Of a DNA stretch of 64,000 nt, positions 2,615 through 52,880 are shown piece by piece. The position numbers and the translations under genes are program-made. The notes under the pieces were generated by a model. The model did not search any database, was not told where the DNA came from, and was given only the letters and a program-made list of their open reading frames with translations. Every line of letters begins with the position of its first letter. Position 1 is the stretch's first letter. This DNA is from Thiomicrospira aerophila AL3 (GTDB lineage Bacteria; Pseudomonadota; Gammaproteobacteria; Thiomicrospirales; Thiomicrospiraceae): assembly GCF_000227665.2 (NCBI RefSeq), contig NZ_CP007030.1, positions 1,488,001-1,552,000 of the forward strand, written 5' to 3'.

Positions 2615-3127
2615 TTAATTGAGCAGCTTCAACAATCCTTGCAGGCCTGCTAAGGTTGTTTGCTGACGAATTGCGTGGCGGTCACCATCAAAACAAAATC
2701 GCTGACTGATACAACTGACACCTAGCTCTGCTCGATAAGCCCACGCCATCCAAACCGTACCAACAGGTTTGTCCGGCGTGCCGCCGCCTGGTCCCGCGAT
2801 GCCACTGCAAGCAATCACAAAATCGGCCTTGGAATGACTGATCGCACCACGCGCCATCTGCTCAACACAGTCTTCACTGACCGCACCTAACTCCGCCAGC
2901 AAGGTTGTTGAAACATCTAATAATTGCTGCTTGGCATCGTTACTGTAGGTCACAAATCCCCGATCGAACCACCCAGAACTGCCAGGTAAATCCGTCACGA
3001 CTTGCGCGATCATTCCTCCGGTACAGGATTCAGCCGTGGCCAACCAGGCCTGCTTAGCCAACATCCGTTCAGCCAAAACCATGACACTGGCCGCAATTTC
3101 TTTATCCATGTTTATATCAATGTTCAT
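2615..3127 (-). CDS. pncC: nicotinamide-nucleotide amidohydrolase (CinA C-terminal family)
   Basis: PncC deamidates nicotinamide mononucleotide to nicotinate mononucleotide in NAD recycling. The protein is the CinA C-terminal domain alone, about 170 residues, with the family signatures ATAESCTGGMIA near residue 30, GSSGWFDRGFVTYSN near 50 and CSGIAGPGGGTPDKPVGTVW near 110. The ATG at 3125-3127 overlaps the end of the CheB-CheR gene by 11 bases; an ATG at 3107-3109 just after that stop is the alternative, and neither has a clear ribosome site. Two CAGGCCTG octamers lie in the gene. Adjacency to recA is common in proteobacteria. Confidence 0.88.
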   Translation of the reverse strand: MNIDINMDKEIAASVMVLAERMLAKQAWLATAESCTGGMIAQVVTDLPGSSGWFDRGFVTYSNDAKQQLLDVSTTLLAELGAVSEDCVEQMARGAISHSKADFVIACSGIAGPGGGTPDKPVGTVWMAWAYRAELGVSCISQRFCFDGDRHAIRQQTTLAGLQGLLKLLN

Positions 3128-6059
3128 CAATATATTGCTCTAAATTTTTCCCCAAATAACTTTGGGTGATAATGAGCGCATACTCTTCACTGCCGCTGAC
3201 CTGCGCGATATGCAGCAAATAATGCTCTATATGTTTGTCTGCTATCACCTTTTTAATCGGAATAGCGATAAAGGGCTGGCGTCCATCCAACACTTTTTTT
3301 ACTTCACTTAATACCCGTTGATAAAAGTCATCACTATCATCAGGATAAAGAGCCAAGCGCGCCTGCATATACTCCTGATTTATTAATCCATCATCAAACC
3401 CCATGCGTTTAGCCAACTTCTCCCAAGCCATGTTGGTTAATGCAATAGTGCCATCTAGTCTCAACACAACCAGTTCTTCTGGCAAGGCATTAATAATTTC
3501 TTGTAATCGATTTTTATCGTGAATCACAGTGACATCAACAAAGGTTGCAAGCGCTCCCCTATTAGGTAAGGAGGGGATTGAATAAGGCAGAATACGCATT
3601 AAAAAAACACGTCCATCAACCGATCTTACTTCCTGCTCCCAGCGTTCAGCAGAGTTGAGCGTAAGCCTGAAAATTGCTTCAATATCAATATCCACTAGCT
3701 GATGGTGAATATCAGTTAATGGACGACCAATATCCGATTCGCGAAACTTAAATAAACTTAGCGCATCCGGGGTAAAGCGCGTTACATTAAGGTCATAATC
3801 AACAAACACAGTCGCCACGCCTACCGCTTTTGCCATAGAATCAAGATCAGCATTTACTTGGTTAAGTCGCACCATTTTCTCTTGAAATTCTGCATTGACG
3901 GTGTTGAGCTCTTCATTAACCGACTGCAACTCTTCGTTTGAGCTTTGCAGCTCCTCATTCGCTGCCATCAACTCTTCATTTGTAGCTTGCAACTCCTCAT
4001 TAGCGGTTTCAAGTTCTTCGATCGTAGCCTGCAAGTTCTCTCGTGACGCAGTTAACTCTTTCTGTAACAGCTCAATACGGTTCTGAGTGACTTCATCAAG
4101 ATTAAATTGTTCAACTTGAGAGGCATAACTGTCTTGCGATGGTGCTTCAAAAACTAACAGTGCGCAACGCTCAGTGACCCTTTCAGTAAAGGGGCGCACA
4201 ATCATTCTGACCAATGACTGCTCACCTGTAACGGCTTTAAAGCCAATAAAATCAGAGTGTAAATCCGTATTATCTTTGATCGCTTTAAAAATCAATGCAC
4301 TTGCCACAGGTACAACTTCTTCGGGCAATAAACGCGATAAATTCATACTCGCCATACCTTGCCGAATCCGAATATAGGGCTGCACATTCCCGTACAGGTG
4401 CAAAACGTCCATCTGCTCATTAATAAGCAACGCTGGCGGGACATATTCATCAAGAATCAGCTGAAATGCCTCTTCTAATATATATTGCTCTGCTGAGTTT
4501 GTTGCAACTCGCGGCTCTAATGCAATGGGTCTAGTCACCCTTGGCTCCATCGCCATAGGCTGACGCGCTTCAAACTTTGGGATAGGAGGGGCATCTAACA
4601 AGTAAAGCGCCGCTTTTGAGACCCGCTGAAATAATTTAAATTTAGTATGAATCACTTCAAAACTTTTCGAGCTGTAACCCAACGACTCGCTCGAACCCAG
4701 AAACAAGTGACCATCGTGTTTCACAGCATATTGCAGGCGGTCTAAGGCTTTTTTTTGTGCATCAGCTTTGAAGTAAATCAAGGTGTTTCGACAAGAAACA
4801 AGATCCATACGCGTAAAAGGTGGATCCACCAACAAATTATGACGTGCAAAGACAATCATTTGACGAACATCGGCGTTGATGCGATAACCCTGGTCTATTT
4901 GAGTGAAATAGGTCTTGAGCCGCACCTCATCGACTTCGGCAGCAATCGAATCAGAGAATACGCCTGCCGAAGCACGTTCAACCATTTGCGGATTGACATC
5001 CGTCGCAAAAAACTTAATTTGACAATATTTTTCTAATTCTTCAAACACCTCAAGGAACAAAATCGCAAGACTATAAACTTCTTCACCTGATGAGCAACCC
5101 GCACACCAAACTCGCAACATTTGATTGGGTTGAGCTTTTTCAACCAGCGGACGAATAACGTTACATTTTAAAAATTCAAACGCTTCAGTATCCCTAAAAA
5201 AACGCGTTACAGGAATAAGTAACTCACGAAATAAACTGACCTGCTCAGTGCTGTCTTTTTCTAAAAAGTCAATGTAGCTGCTAAGTGTGGGATACTGCTT
5301 AACCTGCATACGTCTTTCTATTCGACGAGATACCGTTGCCATTTTATAGGCTTCAAAATCAATGTTACTTTGTCGTTTAAGTAGCTGAAATAACCGATCA
5401 ATGGGTAGCGGACTATCCTGTTGGCTGGCTGCCGTTTTTTTAAGTAATTCTTTTTCTAACTTAACCTCTTGGGGATTAAGAAGATAATCTGTAACACGTG
5501 GCGGCATTTCTGCAACATCAATAACCTCATCGACAACACCCGTTGCAATAACGCTTCGTGGCATGCCATCAAACTTGGCGGTTGAGGGCGTTTGTGCTAT
5601 GACAAACCCGCCCTCTTCGTACACCGCTAACGCACCCCGCGCACCATCTGAGCCTGTACCGGAAAGTACAATTGCAATCGCATTTTTGTGAAAAAACTTC
5701 GCCATTGATGTAAAGAAAATATCGATTGGCAAACTTAATATATGGGGTTGTTTATCACGAAGTTCAAAACGATCGCCGTTAAGGCGCATAGTGACACCAG
5801 GAGGAATCAAAAACACTTTTCCAGCAGTAAGTGCCATGCCTTGTTGAACCGTTACGATAGGGAGTTTGGTATGTCTAGCAAGCAAGTCAGCCATCATACT
5901 TTTGTAATCTGGCGACAAATGTTGTATCACAACATAGGCTACATCAAGGTCGACAGGACAATGTTTAAAATACTCTTCTAGAGCTTCTAGTCCACCTGCA
6001 GATGCACCCAGCGCGACAATATGCTGTGGCCTGAGATCCTGTTCAATTTTGTTTGACAC
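3117..6059 (-). CDS. CheB-CheR-PAS fusion signalling protein
   Basis: A 980-residue fusion. Residues about 10-190 form a CheB methylesterase domain without a receiver; the catalytic triad appears as S20 in GASAGG, H47 in VIQHLSP and D138 in GTGSDGARG. Residues about 215-485 form a CheR methyltransferase with PVTRFFRD and the S-adenosylmethionine-binding [10 protein letters not shown] near 318. Residues about 525-640 are a sensor-like region, 655-735 a coiled coil of NEEL heptads, and about 745-850 and 855-970 two PAS-like domains. There is no kinase domain at the end, unlike many long relatives. No receptor, CheW or CheY is nearby, so the substrate is unclear. The neighbouring 445-residue protein resembles residues 525-980. 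Confidence 0.9.
3900..4019 (-). repeat. NEEL heptad repeats in the CheB-CheR-PAS coiled coil
   Basis: Residues 681-720 consist of consecutive heptads of the form x-EEL-xxx, five of them NEEL. At DNA level this gives a run of similar 21-base units. It encodes a parallel coiled coil joining the CheR half to the PAS half, as in S-helix type linkers. A shorter run of the same heptads is found in the PAS protein at 9599-10936. Confidence 0.75.
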
Positions 6060-6184
6060 TATAACCTCGTGCTGTAAAAACTTTGTTATTCAATTTAATC
6101 TTATCTAAAGCCAATTAAGCAACTTGCCTAGCTTTTTTATCGTATAATTTCATAAAAACTAATGACGTCCTTAAGGTTAAAGAC

Positions 6185-6538
6185 ATGATATACGGCAACC
6201 CATCCTTCCCAATTTTGTCTAAAGATATCATGGATAGCTTGTTTGAGGAAATTGGTGATGAAACATTTTATGAAGCACTCGACGCATTTATGGCCGAAAT
6301 CGGTGAATTTTCTGCACAGGCACTCCACGGCCTATCTCTAGAGGATCTAAGAGTTCAAGCACACAGTTTAAAAAGCAGTGCCAGAATGTTTGGCACCATA
6401 GCACTGGCAGAAAGCGCATTTGAACTCGAAAAAGCATCCAAAAGCCAGAATCAGGCTCTAGTGAATGAACTTCTTGCGCAAATATTAGTTGAGTGCCAAA
6501 GCACTCTCGAAACCCTTAAAGAAACCTGTTCAGTTTAG
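6185..6538 (+). CDS. single-domain HPt phosphotransfer protein
   Basis: A 117-residue protein made of one histidine phosphotransfer domain. The phosphorylatable histidine is H60 in the motif AHSLKSSARMFG, followed by the helix ALAESAFELEKASK typical of HPt proteins. Such proteins carry phosphate between hybrid kinases and response regulators. It is the only plus-strand gene of the cluster; its TAG overlaps the TAA of the hybrid kinase, which converges on it, so the two are natural candidates for partners although the kinase also carries its own HPt-like domain. The start has an AAGG stretch a few bases upstream. Confidence 0.85.
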   Translation: MIYGNPSFPILSKDIMDSLFEEIGDETFYEALDAFMAEIGEFSAQALHGLSLEDLRVQAHSLKSSARMFGTIALAESAFELEKASKSQNQALVNELLAQILVECQSTLETLKETCSV

Positions 6539-9500
6539 CCAAAGTAAGCATTTAAGATTTGAGCCAGTTTTTTGTTATCAAGGGGTTTTAATAAAAAACC
6601 ATTCATACCGACCTGCCAACAAGCCTGTTTATCCTCATTTTGCTCGGCACCGGTTAATGCAATAATAATCGGCTGTTGAATATGCGCCTGTTGGCGAATC
6701 CAGCGAGTTGCTTCAATTCCGCCCATTTCAGGCATAATCAGATCCATGAAAATAAGATCATAGGCTGATGCATTTTTTTCTAACAGTGCCACAGCCTCTA
6801 AACCATTATTCGCGATTGTAGGACTAATACCTAATAACTTTAATTGTTTTTTAACGACGATTTGATTAACTTTATTGTCCTCAACTAACAATACCTTTAA
6901 ATGACCAAGATCTTCAGTTTCTGTCATCGCTGTCTTATTAGTTAATGGACCAGTTTGACTCTCATCGCTGGATATTTCACCTAGTGTGACTTCTCTATCC
7001 TTCATCGCACTCGCCCACTTGGGCACCAACGAACGAACAGCATCACGAGTAGAGAGGTAACAGCTTACCAAGGCTTGGGTTAATTGACCACAGGACTCCC
7101 TACCTTGACAGTCACCCTTAAAACAGCTCAATGTGAATTGATTAATTTCTTTAACCAAGGCTTCTAAAGACAGATTGGAGGCTACACCAAACAGGGTATG
7201 TAATAAAGACTTGAGCTGGTTTTGCCCTTGCTCATCTGCAAATATTGATTCATCTGCAGCCAAACTTTCTAATGCTTTAAACTCTTGATCACACTGGCTT
7301 AAAAACTGCTCTAACAGATTGAAATAAAGCGCATAATCTTGATTAACGCGATGCAAACCAGCTCGAACATTAATCCATGGAACATAGTCTTCAGACAACT
7401 CATAATACTGATTAATCAATGCTGGCGAAAAATCTAAACTGGTATCGGCAATAATGGGTTCGGCCTCTTCATTCTGTGGTAGAAACCTAGCTAACTGCTT
7501 GTATAAATCACGTGTTACCAGTGGCTTACTTAAGTGATCATTCATGCCCACTTCAAGCGCTTTATTTTTGTCTTCAATCATAGCTGCGGCTGTAAGCGCA
7601 ATAATTGGAATGTCTTTATGGGTTTGTCGAATATGTCTAGTTGCTTCATACCCGCCCATTACGGGCATTTGAACATCCATCAAAATCAAGTCAAATTTTT
7701 GCTCAGCGACTCGCTGAATAGCTTGCTGACCATGCTCTGCTATGGACACCGTTAAACCAAAGGATAAAAGCTTTTTTTGCGCAACCTCTTGGTTAATTTG
7801 ATTATCCTCAACCAATAACACATGCCCCATAAGAGGATGAAAAGACGATTGTAGAATTTGCTGATCAATTGATCGCTCTCGTTCTATATCAGCGATTTGC
7901 TCATCAGTGCAGTACAAAAGCGGAACTACAAAGCTAAACTCCGAGCCTTGCGTTTTTTTACTTGTTACTTCGATGCGACTTCCATTCATCGCATAAACAA
8001 GATTTTGACTAATGACTAAACCTAGCCCGGTGCCACCAAATTCACGCGTAATAGAATTATCCACTTGTGAAAAAGATTGAAACAGTTGGGCCAGATCCGT
8101 CTTGGACATACCTATGCCCGTATCACAGACGATAAACCTGATATGGTCAGCGCCTTCAGCAACGGACTCAAGCAAAACATGAAGCTTGACATGCCCTTGC
8201 TTAGTGAATTTGATTGCATTACCTATGATATTAATGAGCACCTGATTAATACGCAGCTCATCACCCAGGTAGTATTGCTTAATTTTATTATCAACATACA
8301 AATCAAAATCGAGTTGCTTTTCTGATGCCGCTGCTGAAAATATGTCCCGAAGATGTGTAATGACATCTGGAAAATGAAAAGGCTTGGCGACAATTTCTAG
8401 CTTTCCGGCTTCAATCTTTGAAAAATCTAGAATGTCATTTAGGATACCTAGTAATAAGCGTCCAGATAGGCTGATTTTTTTAAGGTAGGTTTTCAAGTCA
8501 TATGGGGAGCTTTCCTGCAACCCCAATTCACTCAAGCCAATAATACCATTGAGTGGTGTACGAATTTCATGGCTCATATTCGCTAAAAACATTGACTTAG
8601 CTGCATTAGCCTGTTGAGCCAATTCAATTTGCTCCATAAGCTGTCGATGAATATTTTCCGACTCAGTAATATCGATCAACGACACAATAACCCGGTCGGT
8701 TTTAACCGACTTGACCGCTGTCGCACTAAAGATAGTAATACGTCCTTGATAGTTCAGCTTAATTTTATGCACCCTATTAGGATAACGAAGCAAGACCTCA
8801 AACCACTTTAAATCTTGATTTACTTTAAAATAACCTGGATCATCAACAAATAATTCTTCGATAGAGCGATAATCTTGATTAAATGAGCCTATGGAAGTGT
8901 GACTACGAAAATATTTAAAAAAACCACCACTAACTTCAACAATTTGGTTGGTATCCAACACCAAGATAATATGGTTTTGTGACTCTAGAATATCCCGCAC
9001 CATATTGTTTTCCAACTCTAGACGCTTTTGCTCATCGGATATATCTACCAGAGTTAAAATATTTTGCGATAGACCAGACTCCTTGAAGTGTCGCGTCATC
9101 AACATACCGGCAACATATTTTTCAACATCGAAAGTTTTTAAGGTTAAGCGGCTGTCAAACACGGCTTCCTTATCAGCCATTAATACCGAAGCAATCCAGG
9201 CTGCACTATTGGCATCAAAAAAACGATAGATCGAGTGCTTTAATGCCAAATGATTATTTTGAATACCAAATAAAGCCAAACCTTCATTATTAATCAGTTG
9301 AATCACCCCACGTTCATCGAGTAACACCACTGCTACGGGCATTTGTTCAAAAACTTGCTGTAATTTACGCTGAGAATGGGACAGTTTTTCATGCAAAGCA
9401 ATCAATTCATTATTCTGAATTTCAAGTTCAGCCTCATAAATACGCATTTGTTCAATCACGTTTTGCAAGGATAAATGCGCCTGATCCGAACTATCATTTA

Positions 9501-9591
9501 ACACGAGATCCTGATGCTCGTTTAATAACGCAACCGCGTGCTTGCGTAGATCATCGAGCTTTTTGGGCTTAATAGGTTTAAATGCATCCAT
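6535..9591 (-). CDS. hybrid sensor histidine kinase (PAS-PAS-HisKA-HATPase-REC-HPt-REC)
   Basis: A soluble multi-domain kinase of 1018 residues with no membrane segment. Domain order: N-terminal coil 45-80, PAS about 80-190, PAS about 200-315, HisKA with H341 in NMSHEIRTPLNG, HATPase with the N box INIIGNAIKFT near 455 and G boxes CDTGIG and GGTGLGL, receiver 1 about 589-705 with D639 in LMDVQMP, an HPt-like domain with H798 in LLHTLFGVASNL, and receiver 2 about 898-1018 with D950 in FMDLIMPEMGG. The usual Lys after the HPt histidine region is Phe here. It starts 7 bases after the PAS protein upstream, so the two are co-transcribed. Lack of a membrane anchor suggests an intracellular signal. 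Confidence 0.92.
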   Translation of the reverse strand: MDAFKPIKPKKLDDLRKHAVALLNEHQDLVLNDSSDQAHLSLQNVIEQMRIYEAELEIQNNELIALHEKLSHSQRKLQQVFEQMPVAVVLLDERGVIQLINNEGLALFGIQNNHLALKHSIYRFFDANSAAWIASVLMADKEAVFDSRLTLKTFDVEKYVAGMLMTRHFKESGLSQNILTLVDISDEQKRLELENNMVRDILESQNHIILVLDTNQIVEVSGGFFKYFRSHTSIGSFNQDYRSIEELFVDDPGYFKVNQDLKWFEVLLRYPNRVHKIKLNYQGRITIFSATAVKSVKTDRVIVSLIDITESENIHRQLMEQIELAQQANAAKSMFLANMSHEIRTPLNGIIGLSELGLQESSPYDLKTYLKKISLSGRLLLGILNDILDFSKIEAGKLEIVAKPFHFPDVITHLRDIFSAAASEKQLDFDLYVDNKIKQYYLGDELRINQVLINIIGNAIKFTKQGHVKLHVLLESVAEGADHIRFIVCDTGIGMSKTDLAQLFQSFSQVDNSITREFGGTGLGLVISQNLVYAMNGSRIEVTSKKTQGSEFSFVVPLLYCTDEQIADIERERSIDQQILQSSFHPLMGHVLLVEDNQINQEVAQKKLLSFGLTVSIAEHGQQAIQRVAEQKFDLILMDVQMPVMGGYEATRHIRQTHKDIPIIALTAAAMIEDKNKALEVGMNDHLSKPLVTRDLYKQLARFLPQNEEAEPIIADTSLDFSPALINQYYELSEDYVPWINVRAGLHRVNQDYALYFNLLEQFLSQCDQEFKALESLAADESIFADEQGQNQLKSLLHTLFGVASNLSLEALVKEINQFTLSCFKGDCQGRESCGQLTQALVSCYLSTRDAVRSLVPKWASAMKDREVTLGEISSDESQTGPLTNKTAMTETEDLGHLKVLLVEDNKVNQIVVKKQLKLLGISPTIANNGLEAVALLEKNASAYDLIFMDLIMPEMGGIEATRWIRQQAHIQQPIIIALTGAEQNEDKQACWQVGMNGFLLKPLDNKKLAQILNAYFG

Positions 9592-14685: not shown

Positions 14686-15207
14686 ATGCAACTGAAAAAA
14701 TCATGGTTAGCACTGACAGGTCTGGTCGCAACAGGTGCGTTGGCCTTTTCATTAGCCACACCCGTTATGGCCAATGAGGCCGTTAAAACCGAGACCAAAG
14801 CTGAAATTTTTAAGGCGCCTGAAGACTTATCTACAGTACGCCCTGTGTTACTTTGCCGCTATTACCATCAACAAACCCCTGAAGAACAACAACGTTTTTA
14901 TAATCGCGTTGATTCTTTGGGCTTATTAAGTCACCGTGATTACGACATGATGTCTGAGGGCAAGGTGGTAGTCGGTTCGTCACTCTGTGGCATGTATATG
15001 ACCAAAGGTGAACCTTTATTCGAAGATGGCATTCAAATTCGCCCACTGGTATTTAAGGTTGTGCATGTCTATGAAGACGAGTACATTGTGACTCAAAGTG
15101 GCATGGTAATGGAAATTCACGAACGAGTAGAAGGTGAAATGCCGCCCTCTCTTGATAGAACTGTGCCAGAGGTTGCACCGCCACCTGTCGCACCTAGAAC
15201 GCGCTAA
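14686..15207 (+). CDS. exported protein of unknown function
   Basis: I do not recognise the 173-residue protein. It starts with a clear signal peptide (MQLKKSWLALTGLVATGALA, then a likely cleavage after MANA-like VMANEA near residue 29). The mature part has two cysteines, in LLCRYYHQ near 57 and SSLCGMYM near 105, which could form a disulfide, and a Pro-rich C terminus (PEVAPPPVAPRTR). An AGGA ribosome site lies before the ATG. It probably works in the periplasm. It faces the aspartoacylase-like gene, whose 3' end is 8 bases away. Confidence 0.6.
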   Translation: MQLKKSWLALTGLVATGALAFSLATPVMANEAVKTETKAEIFKAPEDLSTVRPVLLCRYYHQQTPEEQQRFYNRVDSLGLLSHRDYDMMSEGKVVVGSSLCGMYMTKGEPLFEDGIQIRPLVFKVVHVYEDEYIVTQSGMVMEIHERVEGEMPPSLDRTVPEVAPPPVAPRTR

Positions 15208-15215
15208 TCGCTTCA

Positions 15216-16268
15216 CTAGCCTTGATCGCTGATCAAGGCATTCATTTGTTCCGTAAATTGTTCAATATCCGCCACTGCCTGATCTGTCTCGCTGAAACTA
15301 GCAATATGACAAAGTGCTTCCCCTTCATGCACCAAAGGTAATTGCAATAAACCTATCACCACGCCACTGACCGGCGCATAGATAGCTATCGGCTGCTCAC
15401 CTAACGGGTCGGCAACGTCGCCAATCAAGGTTTGATTTGCTTCGATTTTCTGGCCTAACCTAACTAGGCTGCGAAAAATACCGCCCTGTGGCGCACGCAC
15501 CCAACTTGAACCGCGCGCGATAACAGGCTCAAGTTGCGATTTTGATTGCTTAACGGTGCGACTGCGCACCATGCCTAATTGTCGCATCACCCGCAAAATA
15601 CCCTGTACCCCCGCACGAATAGCGACCTCATCGAAACGCAACGCCTCACCCGCCTCATAGAGAATGGTGGGGACACCCAACTTGACCGCAGCTTCACGGA
15701 GCGAGCCATCACGAAGGTTTGAGTTTAAAATGACCGGTGCGCCAAAGGCTTTGGCTAGCTCTAACACCTGATCTTGAGCAAGATCAACACGAACCTGAGC
15801 TAAATTGGTACGATGTCTTGCGCCGGTATGTAAATCTATTGCATGGGTAGCCAATGCCAAAATATCTTGAATAAATAAATAAGCCAAGCGGCCAGCTAAA
15901 GAACCACGCTCTGAACCTGGAAAACTGCGGTTTAAATCCCGGCCATCTGGCAAATAGCGACTTTGGTTAATAAATCCGTGGACATTGACAATCGGCACCG
16001 CGATTAACGTGCCTTTTAGATGCTTTAACTGCCGATGCTTCAATAGGCGTCTAACAATCTCGACCCCATTAAGTTCATCACCATGTATCGCCGCACTGAC
16101 CAACAGAATCGGGCCATCTTGATAGCCACGATGAACCTGAATCGGCATGGTCATGGGCGTTTGGGTATATAACTGACCCAGTTGAATATCAATGCGCTTG
16201 ACTTCACCGGGGGCAATCGTCACCCCTTGAATCACTAGGGTTTGTGGCGTTTTACTCAAGCGCGTCAT
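15216..16268 (-). CDS. succinylglutamate desuccinylase/aspartoacylase family zinc hydrolase
   Basis: A 350-residue M14-like metallohydrolase. Zinc ligands are visible in AAIHGDELNGVEIV (His and Glu) near residue 60 and DLHTG near 142, with the substrate-binding GRDLNRSFPG near 110. The C-terminal part, about 245-330, contains a beta-rich segment (IYAPVSGVVIG) like those of lipoyl-type extensions in this family. It ends a three-gene run with rimK (5-base gap) and the retropepsin-like gene. The succinylarginine pathway is absent nearby, so a role in processing a RimK product is more likely than arginine breakdown; that is inference from context. Confidence 0.82.
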   Translation of the reverse strand: MTRLSKTPQTLVIQGVTIAPGEVKRIDIQLGQLYTQTPMTMPIQVHRGYQDGPILLVSAAIHGDELNGVEIVRRLLKHRQLKHLKGTLIAVPIVNVHGFINQSRYLPDGRDLNRSFPGSERGSLAGRLAYLFIQDILALATHAIDLHTGARHRTNLAQVRVDLAQDQVLELAKAFGAPVILNSNLRDGSLREAAVKLGVPTILYEAGEALRFDEVAIRAGVQGILRVMRQLGMVRSRTVKQSKSQLEPVIARGSSWVRAPQGGIFRSLVRLGQKIEANQTLIGDVADPLGEQPIAIYAPVSGVVIGLLQLPLVHEGEALCHIASFSETDQAVADIEQFTEQMNALISDQG

Positions 16269-49512: not shown

Positions 49513-50103
49513 TTAAAATAACTCAATATCATCCTCAGGCGTTTGTTCTTGTTTGGTTGCAAGACGTTGTGCCATACGCTGACGCATAATGGCTATGGCA
49601 TCATGGGTAGATTTTTGCTGATCAAAAATTAGCTCGAACAGCTCTTCCTCTTCTCGCATAGAGGTACCCTTGCGCACGGCTTGCTTAAATGCGTGCCATT
49701 CCGCTTCATCCTTAACTCGCATTTCATGTGAAACAATTTCAGCCAGCCCAGACAATCCGCCTGATACATGCTGAAGCCGCTGAGATAACTTGTCATAAAA
49801 CTGGAAAGCAATAATAGCCTGCTGCATTTTATCAGCCAATTCAACTGCTTGAGCTTTTAGCAATGAATAGTGGCTAGCAAACTCATCATGCTCTTCTAAA
49901 ACTGGCTTTAGCATATTAGACACAGATTGAATTTCTTCAATGTGCTGAGTCATAAAGCGGAAGGTGTCAATTAACGCATTAACCGAATGATCTCCTTCGG
50001 TTATTGACAGCTCAATTTGAGCAATCGATAAATTTAACACTAATATTGTTTCTTGTACCTCTTTCGCACCCAGTGCATAAGGGTAGGTTGCTGCATTATT
50101 CAT
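49513..50103 (-). CDS. CheZ-like chemotaxis phosphatase (inferred)
   Basis: A 196-residue, mostly helical protein third in an operon with cheD and cheA. Its segment FYDKLSQRL (residues 102-110) has the D-x3-Q spacing (D104, Q108) of the CheZ catalytic FQDLTGQ motif, on a long helix as in CheZ. The C terminus is a charged linker followed by EDDIELF, comparable to the CheY-binding tail of E. coli CheZ (DDLLDSLGF). I infer a phosphatase for a CheY-like receiver. CheD ends in almost the same tail. No CheY gene is in the window. Confidence 0.6.
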   Translation of the reverse strand: MNNAATYPYALGAKEVQETILVLNLSIAQIELSITEGDHSVNALIDTFRFMTQHIEEIQSVSNMLKPVLEEHDEFASHYSLLKAQAVELADKMQQAIIAFQFYDKLSQRLQHVSGGLSGLAEIVSHEMRVKDEAEWHAFKQAVRKGTSMREEEELFELIFDQQKSTHDAIAIMRQRMAQRLATKQEQTPEDDIELF

Positions 50104-50115
50104 AGTTTTCCTAAA

Positions 50116-52242
50116 TTAAGCTACGCGTTTATTGGCTGAGATCGTTTTGTCTTTTGATGGTGTTTTATGTGAAGAAACCACACCAGCCACGTCAATAATA
50201 AGCGCAACTTTACCGTCACCAAGAATAGTGGCGCCGGCAACACCAAATATTTTCATGAAGTTATTTTCTAGGCTTTTAATAACAACTTGTTGCTGCCCCA
50301 TCAAATCGTCCACAAACAAGCCCGCTCGCTTGCCACCCTCTTCAACAACGACCAATAGGCCTTTACTTAAGTCACTTTGAGCATTGTCAACACCAAATAA
50401 TGAATGGAGACGTATAACAGGAATATATTGATCTCTAAGCTTATAGAGTTCTGTTTGGCCCGCAATGCCTTTCACTAGGCTAGAATCAACCTGAATAGAC
50501 TCCACAATTGAGACCAATGGGAATACATAAGTCTGAGCCCCGACAGATGCTAACTGGCCATCCAGAATAGCTAGGGTTAAGGGTAGGCGAATCGTAAAGA
50601 TACTGCCGCGACCAGACTCTGAATGCACTTCAACTGAACCACCTAATCCGCGAATATTTCGTCTGACAACGTCCATTCCAACACCGCGGCCAGAGACATC
50701 ACTCACAACTTCTGCGGTCGAAAAACCAGGATGGAAAATTAAATCCACTATTTCATCATGTGACAAATTCGCATCCGCTTCTATGACGCCCTTCTCGATT
50801 GCTTTTTGGTGGACGCGATCTGTATTAATACCGGCACCATCATCGGTTATTTGAATAACAATATTACCCCCTTGATGGAAAGCAGCCATTTTAACCGTGC
50901 CTTTTTCTGGCTTGCCAGCAGCAAGACGCTTCTCTGGCGACTCAATGCCATGATCAATGGAGTTGCGAACAATATGAACCAACGGATCAGTTAACTGTTC
51001 TAGCATGGTTTTATCCAGCTCAGTATTTTCACCCTCCATCACCAACTCAATTGTTTTACCGAGTTTTTGGCTCACATCATGAACGATTCGAGGCATACGA
51101 TTAAAAGCAAAGCTCACCGGTAACATCCGTATATTCATCACGCTTTCTTGAAGTTCGCGAGTATGACGTTCCAAATGAGATAAGCCTTCTTTTAGCTTAT
51201 CAACCCACTCAGTTGAGTCAGGGTTTTGTTCGGCCTGCTCACCAAACTGGCTCAGCATGGATTGAGTGATGACTAGCTCACCCACTAAATTCACCATTTG
51301 ATCAATCTTGTTGAGGTTAACGCGAATTGACCCATCCGCCTGAGCGGATTTCTTTTGCAAATCTGCACTCGCTTTGGTATCGACTTTCTTTTCAACACTA
51401 GCCGTCTTTGCCACTGAAGCAGGTGCAGAAACCGAGTCCGCAGGTTGAATTTCCATCGTTTTAGCTGCCACAGTATTTTCTGCTGGGGCATCATTTTTAC
51501 CCGCTGCTTTTATAGGCATAACCTGAATGTGTGCACCATCACCATCAATCCATTCAAACACTTCATTAATGGCATCTTCAGAAATCTCACCTGACAACAT
51601 TAGATTCCACTTAAGGTAAACTTCTTCAGGATTATAGTCCTCCCAGGCAACCAACTCTTCAGTATCAACTGATACATCAAGATTCCCCAGCGTCTGGAGC
51701 TCTCTAAAAATACGTAATGGCTCGTTTCCCGTTTGCAATAAATGTCGTTCAGGATGCATAACGATATGCCACAACCTGACACTGTCCGTATCTTGGTTGA
51801 CTAAACTGGGCTCAGATGAGGAACTAATTGATGAAGGCGTTGGATTCGCTGCTTGCTCGCCAGCGAGTAATGCTTCCATTTGGGCTTGGACATGGTCAGA
51901 TCGTTCTTGATCAATTGGCTCATGGTGCTGAAGCTTGGTCAACATGTCTCTCAAAATATCGACAGCATCAAGCATTATCCTAACGGCTTGCTGAGTTACA
52001 TCCCGCTTATAATCGCGCATTTCGTCTAACAAGGTTTCGAGCACGTGGGTGAAGCCCGCAATTTCAGAGAAACCAAACGTGCCACTACCACCTTTTATAG
52101 AATGCGCTGCACGAAAAATCTCGTTTATTTTTTCGGCATCAGGTCGACCTTCAGGCAACTCAAGCAGGCCTGTTTCCATGACCTGCAAACCTTCAAAACT
52201 CTCTTCTAAGTAGGTTTGACGAAAAACTTCCATCATATCCAT
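50116..52242 (-). CDS. cheA: chemotaxis histidine kinase CheA
   Basis: A 708-residue CheA. P1 phosphotransfer domain with H47 in FRAAHSIKGGSGTFGF; a P2-like region about 155-250; dimerisation helices near 310 (LNKIDQMVNLVGELVITQS); ATPase with VRNSIDHGIESPEKR near 440, DDGAGI near 480 and GRGVGMDVVRRNI near 528; and a C-terminal CheW-like domain about 570-695. Transfers phosphate to CheY and CheB. 12 bases upstream of the CheZ-like gene. Confidence 0.95.
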   Translation of the reverse strand: MDMMEVFRQTYLEESFEGLQVMETGLLELPEGRPDAEKINEIFRAAHSIKGGSGTFGFSEIAGFTHVLETLLDEMRDYKRDVTQQAVRIMLDAVDILRDMLTKLQHHEPIDQERSDHVQAQMEALLAGEQAANPTPSSISSSSEPSLVNQDTDSVRLWHIVMHPERHLLQTGNEPLRIFRELQTLGNLDVSVDTEELVAWEDYNPEEVYLKWNLMLSGEISEDAINEVFEWIDGDGAHIQVMPIKAAGKNDAPAENTVAAKTMEIQPADSVSAPASVAKTASVEKKVDTKASADLQKKSAQADGSIRVNLNKIDQMVNLVGELVITQSMLSQFGEQAEQNPDSTEWVDKLKEGLSHLERHTRELQESVMNIRMLPVSFAFNRMPRIVHDVSQKLGKTIELVMEGENTELDKTMLEQLTDPLVHIVRNSIDHGIESPEKRLAAGKPEKGTVKMAAFHQGGNIVIQITDDGAGINTDRVHQKAIEKGVIEADANLSHDEIVDLIFHPGFSTAEVVSDVSGRGVGMDVVRRNIRGLGGSVEVHSESGRGSIFTIRLPLTLAILDGQLASVGAQTYVFPLVSIVESIQVDSSLVKGIAGQTELYKLRDQYIPVIRLHSLFGVDNAQSDLSKGLLVVVEEGGKRAGLFVDDLMGQQQVVIKSLENNFMKIFGVAGATILGDGKVALIIDVAGVVSSHKTPSKDKTISANKRVA

Positions 52243-52301
52243 GGTATGTTTCCTATATAGTTATCGACACAATGCTAACAAACAATCTGTAAAATGCGAA
52301 G

Positions 52302-52880
52302 TTAAAATAACTCCACGTCACCCTCAACTGGCTTTTTATCAATTGTTTTAACATATTGATTTTCCTGCTCAAACAACGACTCATTGTGCATTGGATTTAA
52401 TCTACGCACTCGAACCCGACCATCAGCAGGGTAAAATATGACTTTGCGCGGGAACACATCACCAATGTCCTGCGAAATCACCTTAAAGCCTTCAGTGTAA
52501 ATATAATCAAAAACGAACCCAATGTTATACCAACCGATATTGGTCATCGAACTCATAATACGGCCACCACCAAACACTTTGAACTCTAAACGTTCACGTT
52601 TAGCACCACTACGCAACAGGGTGTTAACCATATTCTCCATGGCATAGTTGCCGTACCGATTAGCATCAGATAATTCAAAGTTCCGGTTCGCGGAAGATTT
52701 ATCCATTGGCAACATGAAATGATTCATACCACCAATTTTGGCCACAGGATCATGGACACATGCTGCAATACAGGACCCTAGAACGGTTTCTATTCTCTCT
52801 TGCTGTTGAGTGACATAAAACTCGCCAGGTAAAATTTTAATTGTCGCAATACCTTCTGCTGGATCAATACTTTTCTGCAT
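52302..52880 (-). CDS. cheD: chemoreceptor glutamine deamidase CheD
   Basis: A 192-residue CheD with the catalytic cysteine in ETVLGSCIAACVHDP near residue 30, the histidine in GGMNHFMLPM near 52 and FKVFGGGRIMSSM near 100. CheD deamidates glutamines of chemoreceptors. It ends EGDVELF, nearly the same tail as the CheZ-like protein two genes on. First gene of cheD-cheA-cheZ-like, 59 bases before cheA. Confidence 0.93.
   Translation of the reverse strand: MQKSIDPAEGIATIKILPGEFYVTQQQERIETVLGSCIAACVHDPVAKIGGMNHFMLPMDKSSANRNFELSDANRYGNYAMENMVNTLLRSGAKRERLEFKVFGGGRIMSSMTNIGWYNIGFVFDYIYTEGFKVISQDIGDVFPRKVIFYPADGRVRVRRLNPMHNESLFEQENQYVKTIDKKPVEGDVELF

Follow-up and report, generated by a model that had tools for sequence, protein, structure and literature searches.

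The 64,000-nucleotide stretch of DNA analysed here (hereafter the window) covers positions 1,488,001 to 1,552,000 of contig NZ_CP007030.1 of Thiomicrospira aerophila AL3 and carries, on its minus strand, cheD, cheA and the gene of a CheZ-like helical protein. The products of cheD and of the CheZ-like gene end in almost the same five residues, and this C-terminal tail is the subject of the present work. The features concerned are the following.

52302..52880, minus strand: CheD, receptor glutamine deamidase, 192 amino acids, with the C-terminal tail (PF03975, NF010013)
52305..52319, minus strand: CheD tail DVELF, the codons immediately 5' of the stop codon
50116..52242, minus strand: CheA histidine kinase, between the two tail genes (Hpt, H-kinase_dim, HATPase_c and CheW domains)
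49513..50103, minus strand: CheZ-like helical protein, 196 amino acids, with the C-terminal tail (DxxxQ motif, modelled helical hairpin)
49780..49794, minus strand: DKLSQ (D104...Q108), the CheZ-type DxxxQ motif of the CheZ-like protein, invariant in alignment
49516..49530, minus strand: CheZ-like tail DIELF, the codons immediately 5' of the stop codon

CheD scores above the cut-off for both PF03975 (91.3 bits, cut-off 25) and NCBIfam NF010013 (239.6 bits, cut-off 223), which places it in the CheD family, and the NF010013 match extends to the profile's last position. It ends KPVEGDVELF and the CheZ-like protein ends TPEDDIELF, each exactly at the stop codon. These coordinates and ends confirm what the original prediction, made from the letters of the window, had observed, and its remark that the two proteins are otherwise unrelated also holds (BLASTP between them gave no similarity, E = 55). 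Residues D188, E190, L191 and F192 of the CheD tail are invariant in a 12-sequence alignment (A1), and I193 and F196 of the CheZ-like tail in 11 of 11 sequences. The last 12 bases of the two genes are identical in this genome (GAGTTATTTTAA); among relatives the tail residues are kept while their codons change synonymously. The closest named relative among the fetched loci is Thiomicrospira sp. ALE5, whose CheD is 94% identical. In G053, another genome of the genus, neither a CheD nor a match to the tail pattern is present.

The 2.16 Mb genome was searched with a DNA pattern for [DE]-h-E-[LF]-F-stop (GANNTNGARYTNTTYTRR), which matched at four places, compared with two for the reversed control pattern. 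Three of the four are gene ends, namely those of CheD, the CheZ-like protein and a chemoreceptor (MCP) of 435 amino acids encoded downstream of CheR-CheB (L003); no open reading frame (ORF) of at least 100 amino acids ends at the fourth, where the locus has three such ORFs. The search for further tail proteins that had been suggested together with the prediction thus added one MCP.

L350, 4604-5911: third tail receptor, directly behind CheR-CheB, ending EEGDIELF

The conserved motif, [DE][IV][ED][LF]F at the C-terminus, is found in Beta- and Gammaproteobacteria. We fetched 80 named loci through CheD, taking the best 80 by CheD similarity, a choice that favours the tail, and in all 80 the CheD carries it (72 exactly at the stop codon, 8 with one or two further residues). 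When ORFs of at least 150 amino acids were taken from these loci in six frames, hence not all of them genes, 95 of 1415 ends matched [DE][IV][DE][LF]F. All 95 matched chemotaxis seeds; as CheD served to fetch the loci, its share among them is enriched. Of the 867 ORFs that matched no chemotaxis seed, none carried the tail, so that in these loci the motif is not scattered by chance over unrelated C termini, an outcome that would have spoken against the prediction. Internal 5-mers matched the same pattern at 2 of 463,968 positions in these loci.

Absence of the tail from orthologues would also have spoken against it, and this is largely not what was found, given the 80 named loci, but the class at large is less uniform: in a class sample of 50 loci (L348 being a repeat of L218) that yielded 49 CheD, seven lack the tail and four have altered ends (L330, L332, L337 and L338). 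Thirty of the 49 end exactly in [IV][ED]LF, four have one or two residues beyond the tail, two a longer extension (YGAIR in L216, GDFNHGRR in L339) and two are near variants, DAELF and DVTLF. Elsewhere, CheD ends EGDVELF in Azospirillum, ESPIEFF in Sinorhizobium and GAVTLF in Phaeobacter; in Cupriavidus a longer extension comes after the motif, and the CheD of an Aeromonas plasmid has no tail. Methylomicrobium sp. RS1 (L165) has two CheD (8914-9549 and 15124-15708), one tailed and the other, adjoining CheR, tailless. In L136, L143, L145 and L196 the tailed CheD lies directly behind a gene for a protein of 285-290 amino acids, HDOD-like by its sequence type, rather than behind CheR.

Around CheD, the tail on receptors goes together with the DxxxQ motif. 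In the loci concerned (L119-L228 and L329-L348), all 28 receptors with DxxxQ end in the tail, as against none of the 86 that lack DxxxQ. Aromatic pentapeptides such as DEWEEF end 72 of those 86 and none of the 28. These counts include as DxxxQ-bearing the receptors of L174 (MQVDDIVSQ) and L332 (MQFEDMTNQ), and as tail-bearing that of L148 (GKVDLF). The two endings can be seen side by side in Vibrio sp. THAF191d, where one MCP ends DEWEEF while CheD ends DDDVELF and a McpA-like receptor with LQFTDIIVQ ends EGEVELF; the single DxxxQ-like match in the DEWEEF receptor lies upstream of its signalling domain. Similarly, a receptor of L341 has the pentapeptide EFVRY, and the CheD and DxxxQ receptor of that locus both end NIELF. 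Seven other receptors of the T. aerophila genome have aromatic pentapeptides. L332, with a cheY gene alongside, has an altered set of tails: GFQRY and GFERH are the ends of its receptors, DGEIDFF that of the DxxxQ receptor (5721-6977) and QVFFLSD that of the preceding CheD.

Receptors of the third tail protein's type follow CheR-CheD-CheB in many clusters of the named loci, and by gene order and the published description of the C-terminus they appear to match the McpA-like receptors of F7 systems (PMC7184735). There too the receptor gene lies at the F7 cluster, and the McpA C-terminus, with a valine at position two in Pseudomonas aeruginosa, was noted in 2020 as conserved and non-aromatic; in that text it is reported not to bind CheR, and its role was left open. 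Part of the present pattern was therefore already seen, apparently for McpA only; here CheD, CheZ-like and GGDEF proteins share the tail, and DxxxQ is present in the receptors. We equate the two C-termini on the basis of gene order and the published text.

How far the CheZ-like protein resembles CheZ was then judged from motif, model and profile. In its alignments (A2 and A3) DxxxQ is invariant, and A99, F100, Q101, F102, Y103, D104 and Q108 are so in 11 of 11 sequences. The AlphaFold2 (AF2) model has a mean predicted local distance difference test score (pLDDT) of 65.5, with helices at 13-69 and 73-125, D104 and Q108 being in the second, so that the motif is predicted to sit on a long helical hairpin as in CheZ; residues 185-196, which include the tail, score below 50. 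Among the matches listed, Foldseek and VIA-align gave general helical-hairpin matches only. A comparison with canonical CheZ by hhalign was not significant, and no PF04344 was among the 25 families listed at E <= 1 for ten relatives (A3). In a single comparison that included the tail, the CheZ-like protein and the C-terminal region of McpA-like receptors aligned with an hhalign probability of 96% and E 2.4e-9, and we regard the two as related by profile comparison; McpA-like against CheZ aligned DxxxQ to DxxxQ, weakly, and the L341 receptor with DxxxQ gave a weak PF04344 match (20.5 bits, E 4.3e-4). The label "CheZ-like" accordingly refers to the DxxxQ motif and the similarity to the McpA-like region, and to these only.

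The tail is distinct from that of canonical CheZ. In CheZ the CheY-binding helix is likewise an acidic-hydrophobic peptide that follows a DxxxQ helical domain and has F as its last residue, but its sequence and spacing are different: canonical CheZ has VDDLLSSLGF, or a close variant, at its end in 29 of 30 loci, whereas the CheZ-like protein lacks the DDLLxxLGF helix and ends DDIELF. T. aerophila also has a canonical CheZ, ending EADDLLAQLGL and adjoining the flagellar CheY, and a third phosphatase-like protein.

L349, 1824-2270 (genome C1, about 1117.6-1118.1 kb): 148 amino acids, DLSGQ motif, PF04344 at E 1.6e-5, below the family cut-off

This protein has LSQEEIDLLF near its C-terminus, which resembles the CheY-binding motif of FliM. 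Each DxxxQ protein of the genome ends in or near an acidic-hydrophobic peptide of its own, EADDLLAQLGL, LSQEEIDLLF or D[IV]ELF. The FliM motif is of the EIDALL type; the tail is similarly acidic-I-acidic-L-hydrophobic, but the FliM motif is N-terminal and one residue longer, and the two are not homologous.

Further carriers were found within the family of T. aerophila. In a reading of 30 loci and 20 regions (the pattern scan of the family has further tail places), the 58 tail ORFs of at least 100 amino acids comprised 21 CheD, 16 CheZ-like proteins, one CheZ-like paralogue, nine MCP and 11 GGDEF proteins (L049, L056, L062, L075, L092, L105, L109, L110, L112, L114 and L117). Nine of these 11 were scanned with Pfam and matched PAS and GGDEF, PAS being below the cut-off in L062, and the tail GGDEF proteins are probably diguanylate cyclases. 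Three more occur in distant genomes of the class (L259, L272 and L287). In 21 CheD-bearing genomes of the class the tail pattern matched 72 times and the reversed control 31 times; the corresponding figures for 10 genomes picked as lacking CheD are 4 and 11, where one of the ten, G104, actually holds CheD in a partly masked stretch and another, G171, has a 77-amino-acid ORF ending like a McpA-like receptor. The long tail ORFs of the class genomes are CheD, CheZ-like proteins, receptors, GGDEF proteins and one that matches no label (L299, 304 amino acids from its start); the remaining unlabelled ends are ORFs of fewer than 90 amino acids, one CheZ-like protein (L304) and receptors. With a receptor family and GGDEF proteins among its carriers, the tail extends beyond a deamidase and a phosphatase. 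Docking in cis, on a receiver in the same chain, was considered and set aside, as Pfam listed no receiver in the CheZ-like paralogue or in the nine GGDEF proteins scanned.

The presence of the tail on several kinds of protein, its conservation independently of codons and its absence from ORFs without a chemotaxis match strongly suggest, at the level of sequence, a common docking partner, as had been predicted. The CheC-like protein then offered as one candidate is unsupported, and CheX likewise, since the genome has no match to PF04509 (CheC) or PF13690 (CheX); a CheY-like receiver, the other candidate, appears to be the best. Our favoured reading, held tentatively and with somewhat less than even confidence, is that the tail is an F7-type docking motif through which several F7 proteins would bind one partner, most probably the CheY-like receiver of the same system. 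We infer a single partner, and we infer CheY, because the tail is coupled to DxxxQ in the receptors of CheD loci, follows a DxxxQ helical domain as in CheZ and is acidic-hydrophobic in make-up, and because the third DxxxQ protein carries LSQEEIDLLF near its end. Published work points the same way, since stage 1 and 2 F7 clusters have cheY and no cheZ (PMC7184735), and since CheY4 of the F7-type cluster of Vibrio cholerae does not bind FliM and is expected to bind CheZ poorly (PMC3774744), so that a different docking peptide would be needed. In T. aerophila the F7-like system looks split, because CheR-CheB-McpA-like (genome C1, 743137-746410, L350) lies apart from CheD-CheA-CheZ-like in the window.

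With an F7 CheY as the partner, the CheZ-like protein and the McpA-like DxxxQ receptors, if DxxxQ confers phosphatase activity here, would use the tail to hold phosphorylated CheY (CheY-P), in parallel to E. coli CheZ with its different C-terminal tail. CheD might sense CheY-P through its tail directly, without CheC, where Bacillus CheD does so through CheC, and regulation would then run from CheY-P to CheD. The tail GGDEF proteins could be recruited or regulated as an output, perhaps in the form of cyclic diguanylate (c-di-GMP). In its fullest form, with D[IV]ELF as the address code of an orphan F7 CheY, a phosphatase hidden in the McpA-like receptor and the stand-alone CheZ-like protein, CheD reading CheY-P without CheC, and an output that includes c-di-GMP through tail GGDEF proteins, the proposal is an unlikely one, put forward as a speculation.

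The tail could instead be a modified receptor pentapeptide (x-[HFYW]-x(2)-[HFYW]) that docks at the CheR (or CheB) site and gathers the adaptation enzymes and the phosphatase, which we consider quite unlikely. The two agree in length and register, both being the five extreme C-terminal residues, acidic, hydrophobic at -3, often with E at -2 and with F last; on receptors they occupy the same position, and CheR and CheB are frequent operon neighbours. However, the tail is distinct from the CheR pentapeptide: aromatic or His residues are required at positions 2 and 5 of the latter, while the window tails have I or V at position 2 (-3) and the motif has L or F at -1; it is, in addition, on CheD and phosphatase-like proteins. 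The strict partition of the two endings over the 28 and 86 receptors, and their coexistence in L341, speak against a shared site, as does the report (PMC7184735, citing another paper) that the valine at position two of P. aeruginosa McpA blocks interaction with all four CheR homologues. In an AF2 model of a CheR-CheD read-through, with a predicted template modelling score (pTM) of 0.47 and no positive control, the last ten residues form no secondary structure and score about 30 in pLDDT, which argues weakly against CheR. CheT of Sinorhizobium meliloti, a DxxxQ phosphatase, is in complex with CheR (PMC12654446), and a CheT-like protein adjoining cheD has a C-terminal h-E-x-F peptide, DFEAF; its aromatic residue at -3, which the tail lacks, puts CheT in the pentapeptide class.

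L355, 1968-2519: Sinorhizobium CheD, ending SPIEFF
L355, 2549-2923: CheT-like protein with DLAVQ, ending GDFEAF

These two ends are a related pair of tails in an alphaproteobacterium.

Docking on another array or polar hub, such as CheW, CheA, CheV, a STAS protein, a ParA/ParC-type or other protein, with the tail as a pure localisation tag, is a doubtful but serious possibility: soluble enzymes, receptors (including some without DxxxQ) and GGDEF proteins carry the tail alike, and CheW, ParA and STAS genes are in the same clusters. The coupling to DxxxQ in 28 of 28 receptors is unexpected of a general localisation tag. FimV/HubP (PMC12918733, PMC11236974, PMC9061725) was provisionally set aside as the partner because the docking site of the Shewanella HubP FimV domain is negatively charged (PMC9061725), a poor fit to an acidic tail. 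A protease signal or stability element with no signalling partner is very unlikely. Some degrons typically have free hydrophobic residues at the C-terminus, but in the sets read the tail sits on chemosensory and GGDEF proteins, and the one or two residues that follow it in 8 of 80 named CheD, and the five and nine or so in L216 and L339, would disturb a C-terminal degron. That the two gene ends are alike merely by chance or shared ancestry is hardly credible; their 12 identical bases would fit this, but the codons vary among relatives while the residues stay, internal matches are as rare as given above, and CheD carries the tail in distant Beta- and Gammaproteobacteria.

Several observations weigh against an F7 CheY as the shared partner. 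No F7-type (cognate) CheY was identified in this genome. The CheZ-like protein has no match to the Pfam CheZ family PF04344 (cut-off 30.7 bits) at E <= 1, and four McpA-like receptors have none at E <= 0.5. Genome-wide, in 21 genomes, 6 of 24 tail receptors, a count whose filter leaves out the L322 receptor, lack DxxxQ (L282, L285, L291, L311, L314 and L317, with a CZB domain in L291 and hemerythrin in L311) and are unexplained by the phosphatase reading. These receptors and the tail GGDEF proteins fit a general hub equally well, and PAS-GGDEF proteins are not known to need CheY. The tail is also out of register with known CheY-binding peptides. Five of the seven tailless CheD of the class sample (L340 and L342-L347) are in CheR-CheD-CheB order (L340, L342, L343, L344 and L347), and therefore gene order alone is no predictor of the tail. 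Finally, F6 arrays have been reported to include McpA-like receptors (PMC7534058, PMC9855816), which complicates a partner belonging to F7 only.

A single peptide motif links CheD, a CheZ-like protein, McpA-like DxxxQ receptors and GGDEF proteins. It resembles an address tag that points to one common partner, which may be the signal carrier of the chemosensory system. Published work leaves the function of F7 systems and McpA-like receptors unsettled (PMC7184735, PMC7534058), and the motif opens direct tests of who ends F7 signals, how CheD is controlled without CheC and what F7 controls. In the parts of the open-access literature that were searched, we found neither a tail shared by CheD and phosphatase-like proteins nor DxxxQ in McpA-like receptors. 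Elsewhere in the window, two large ORFs (3117-6059 and 6535-9591) contain, according to the genome searches, a CheR domain (4644-5210) and receiver domains (6553-6894 and 7492-7821).

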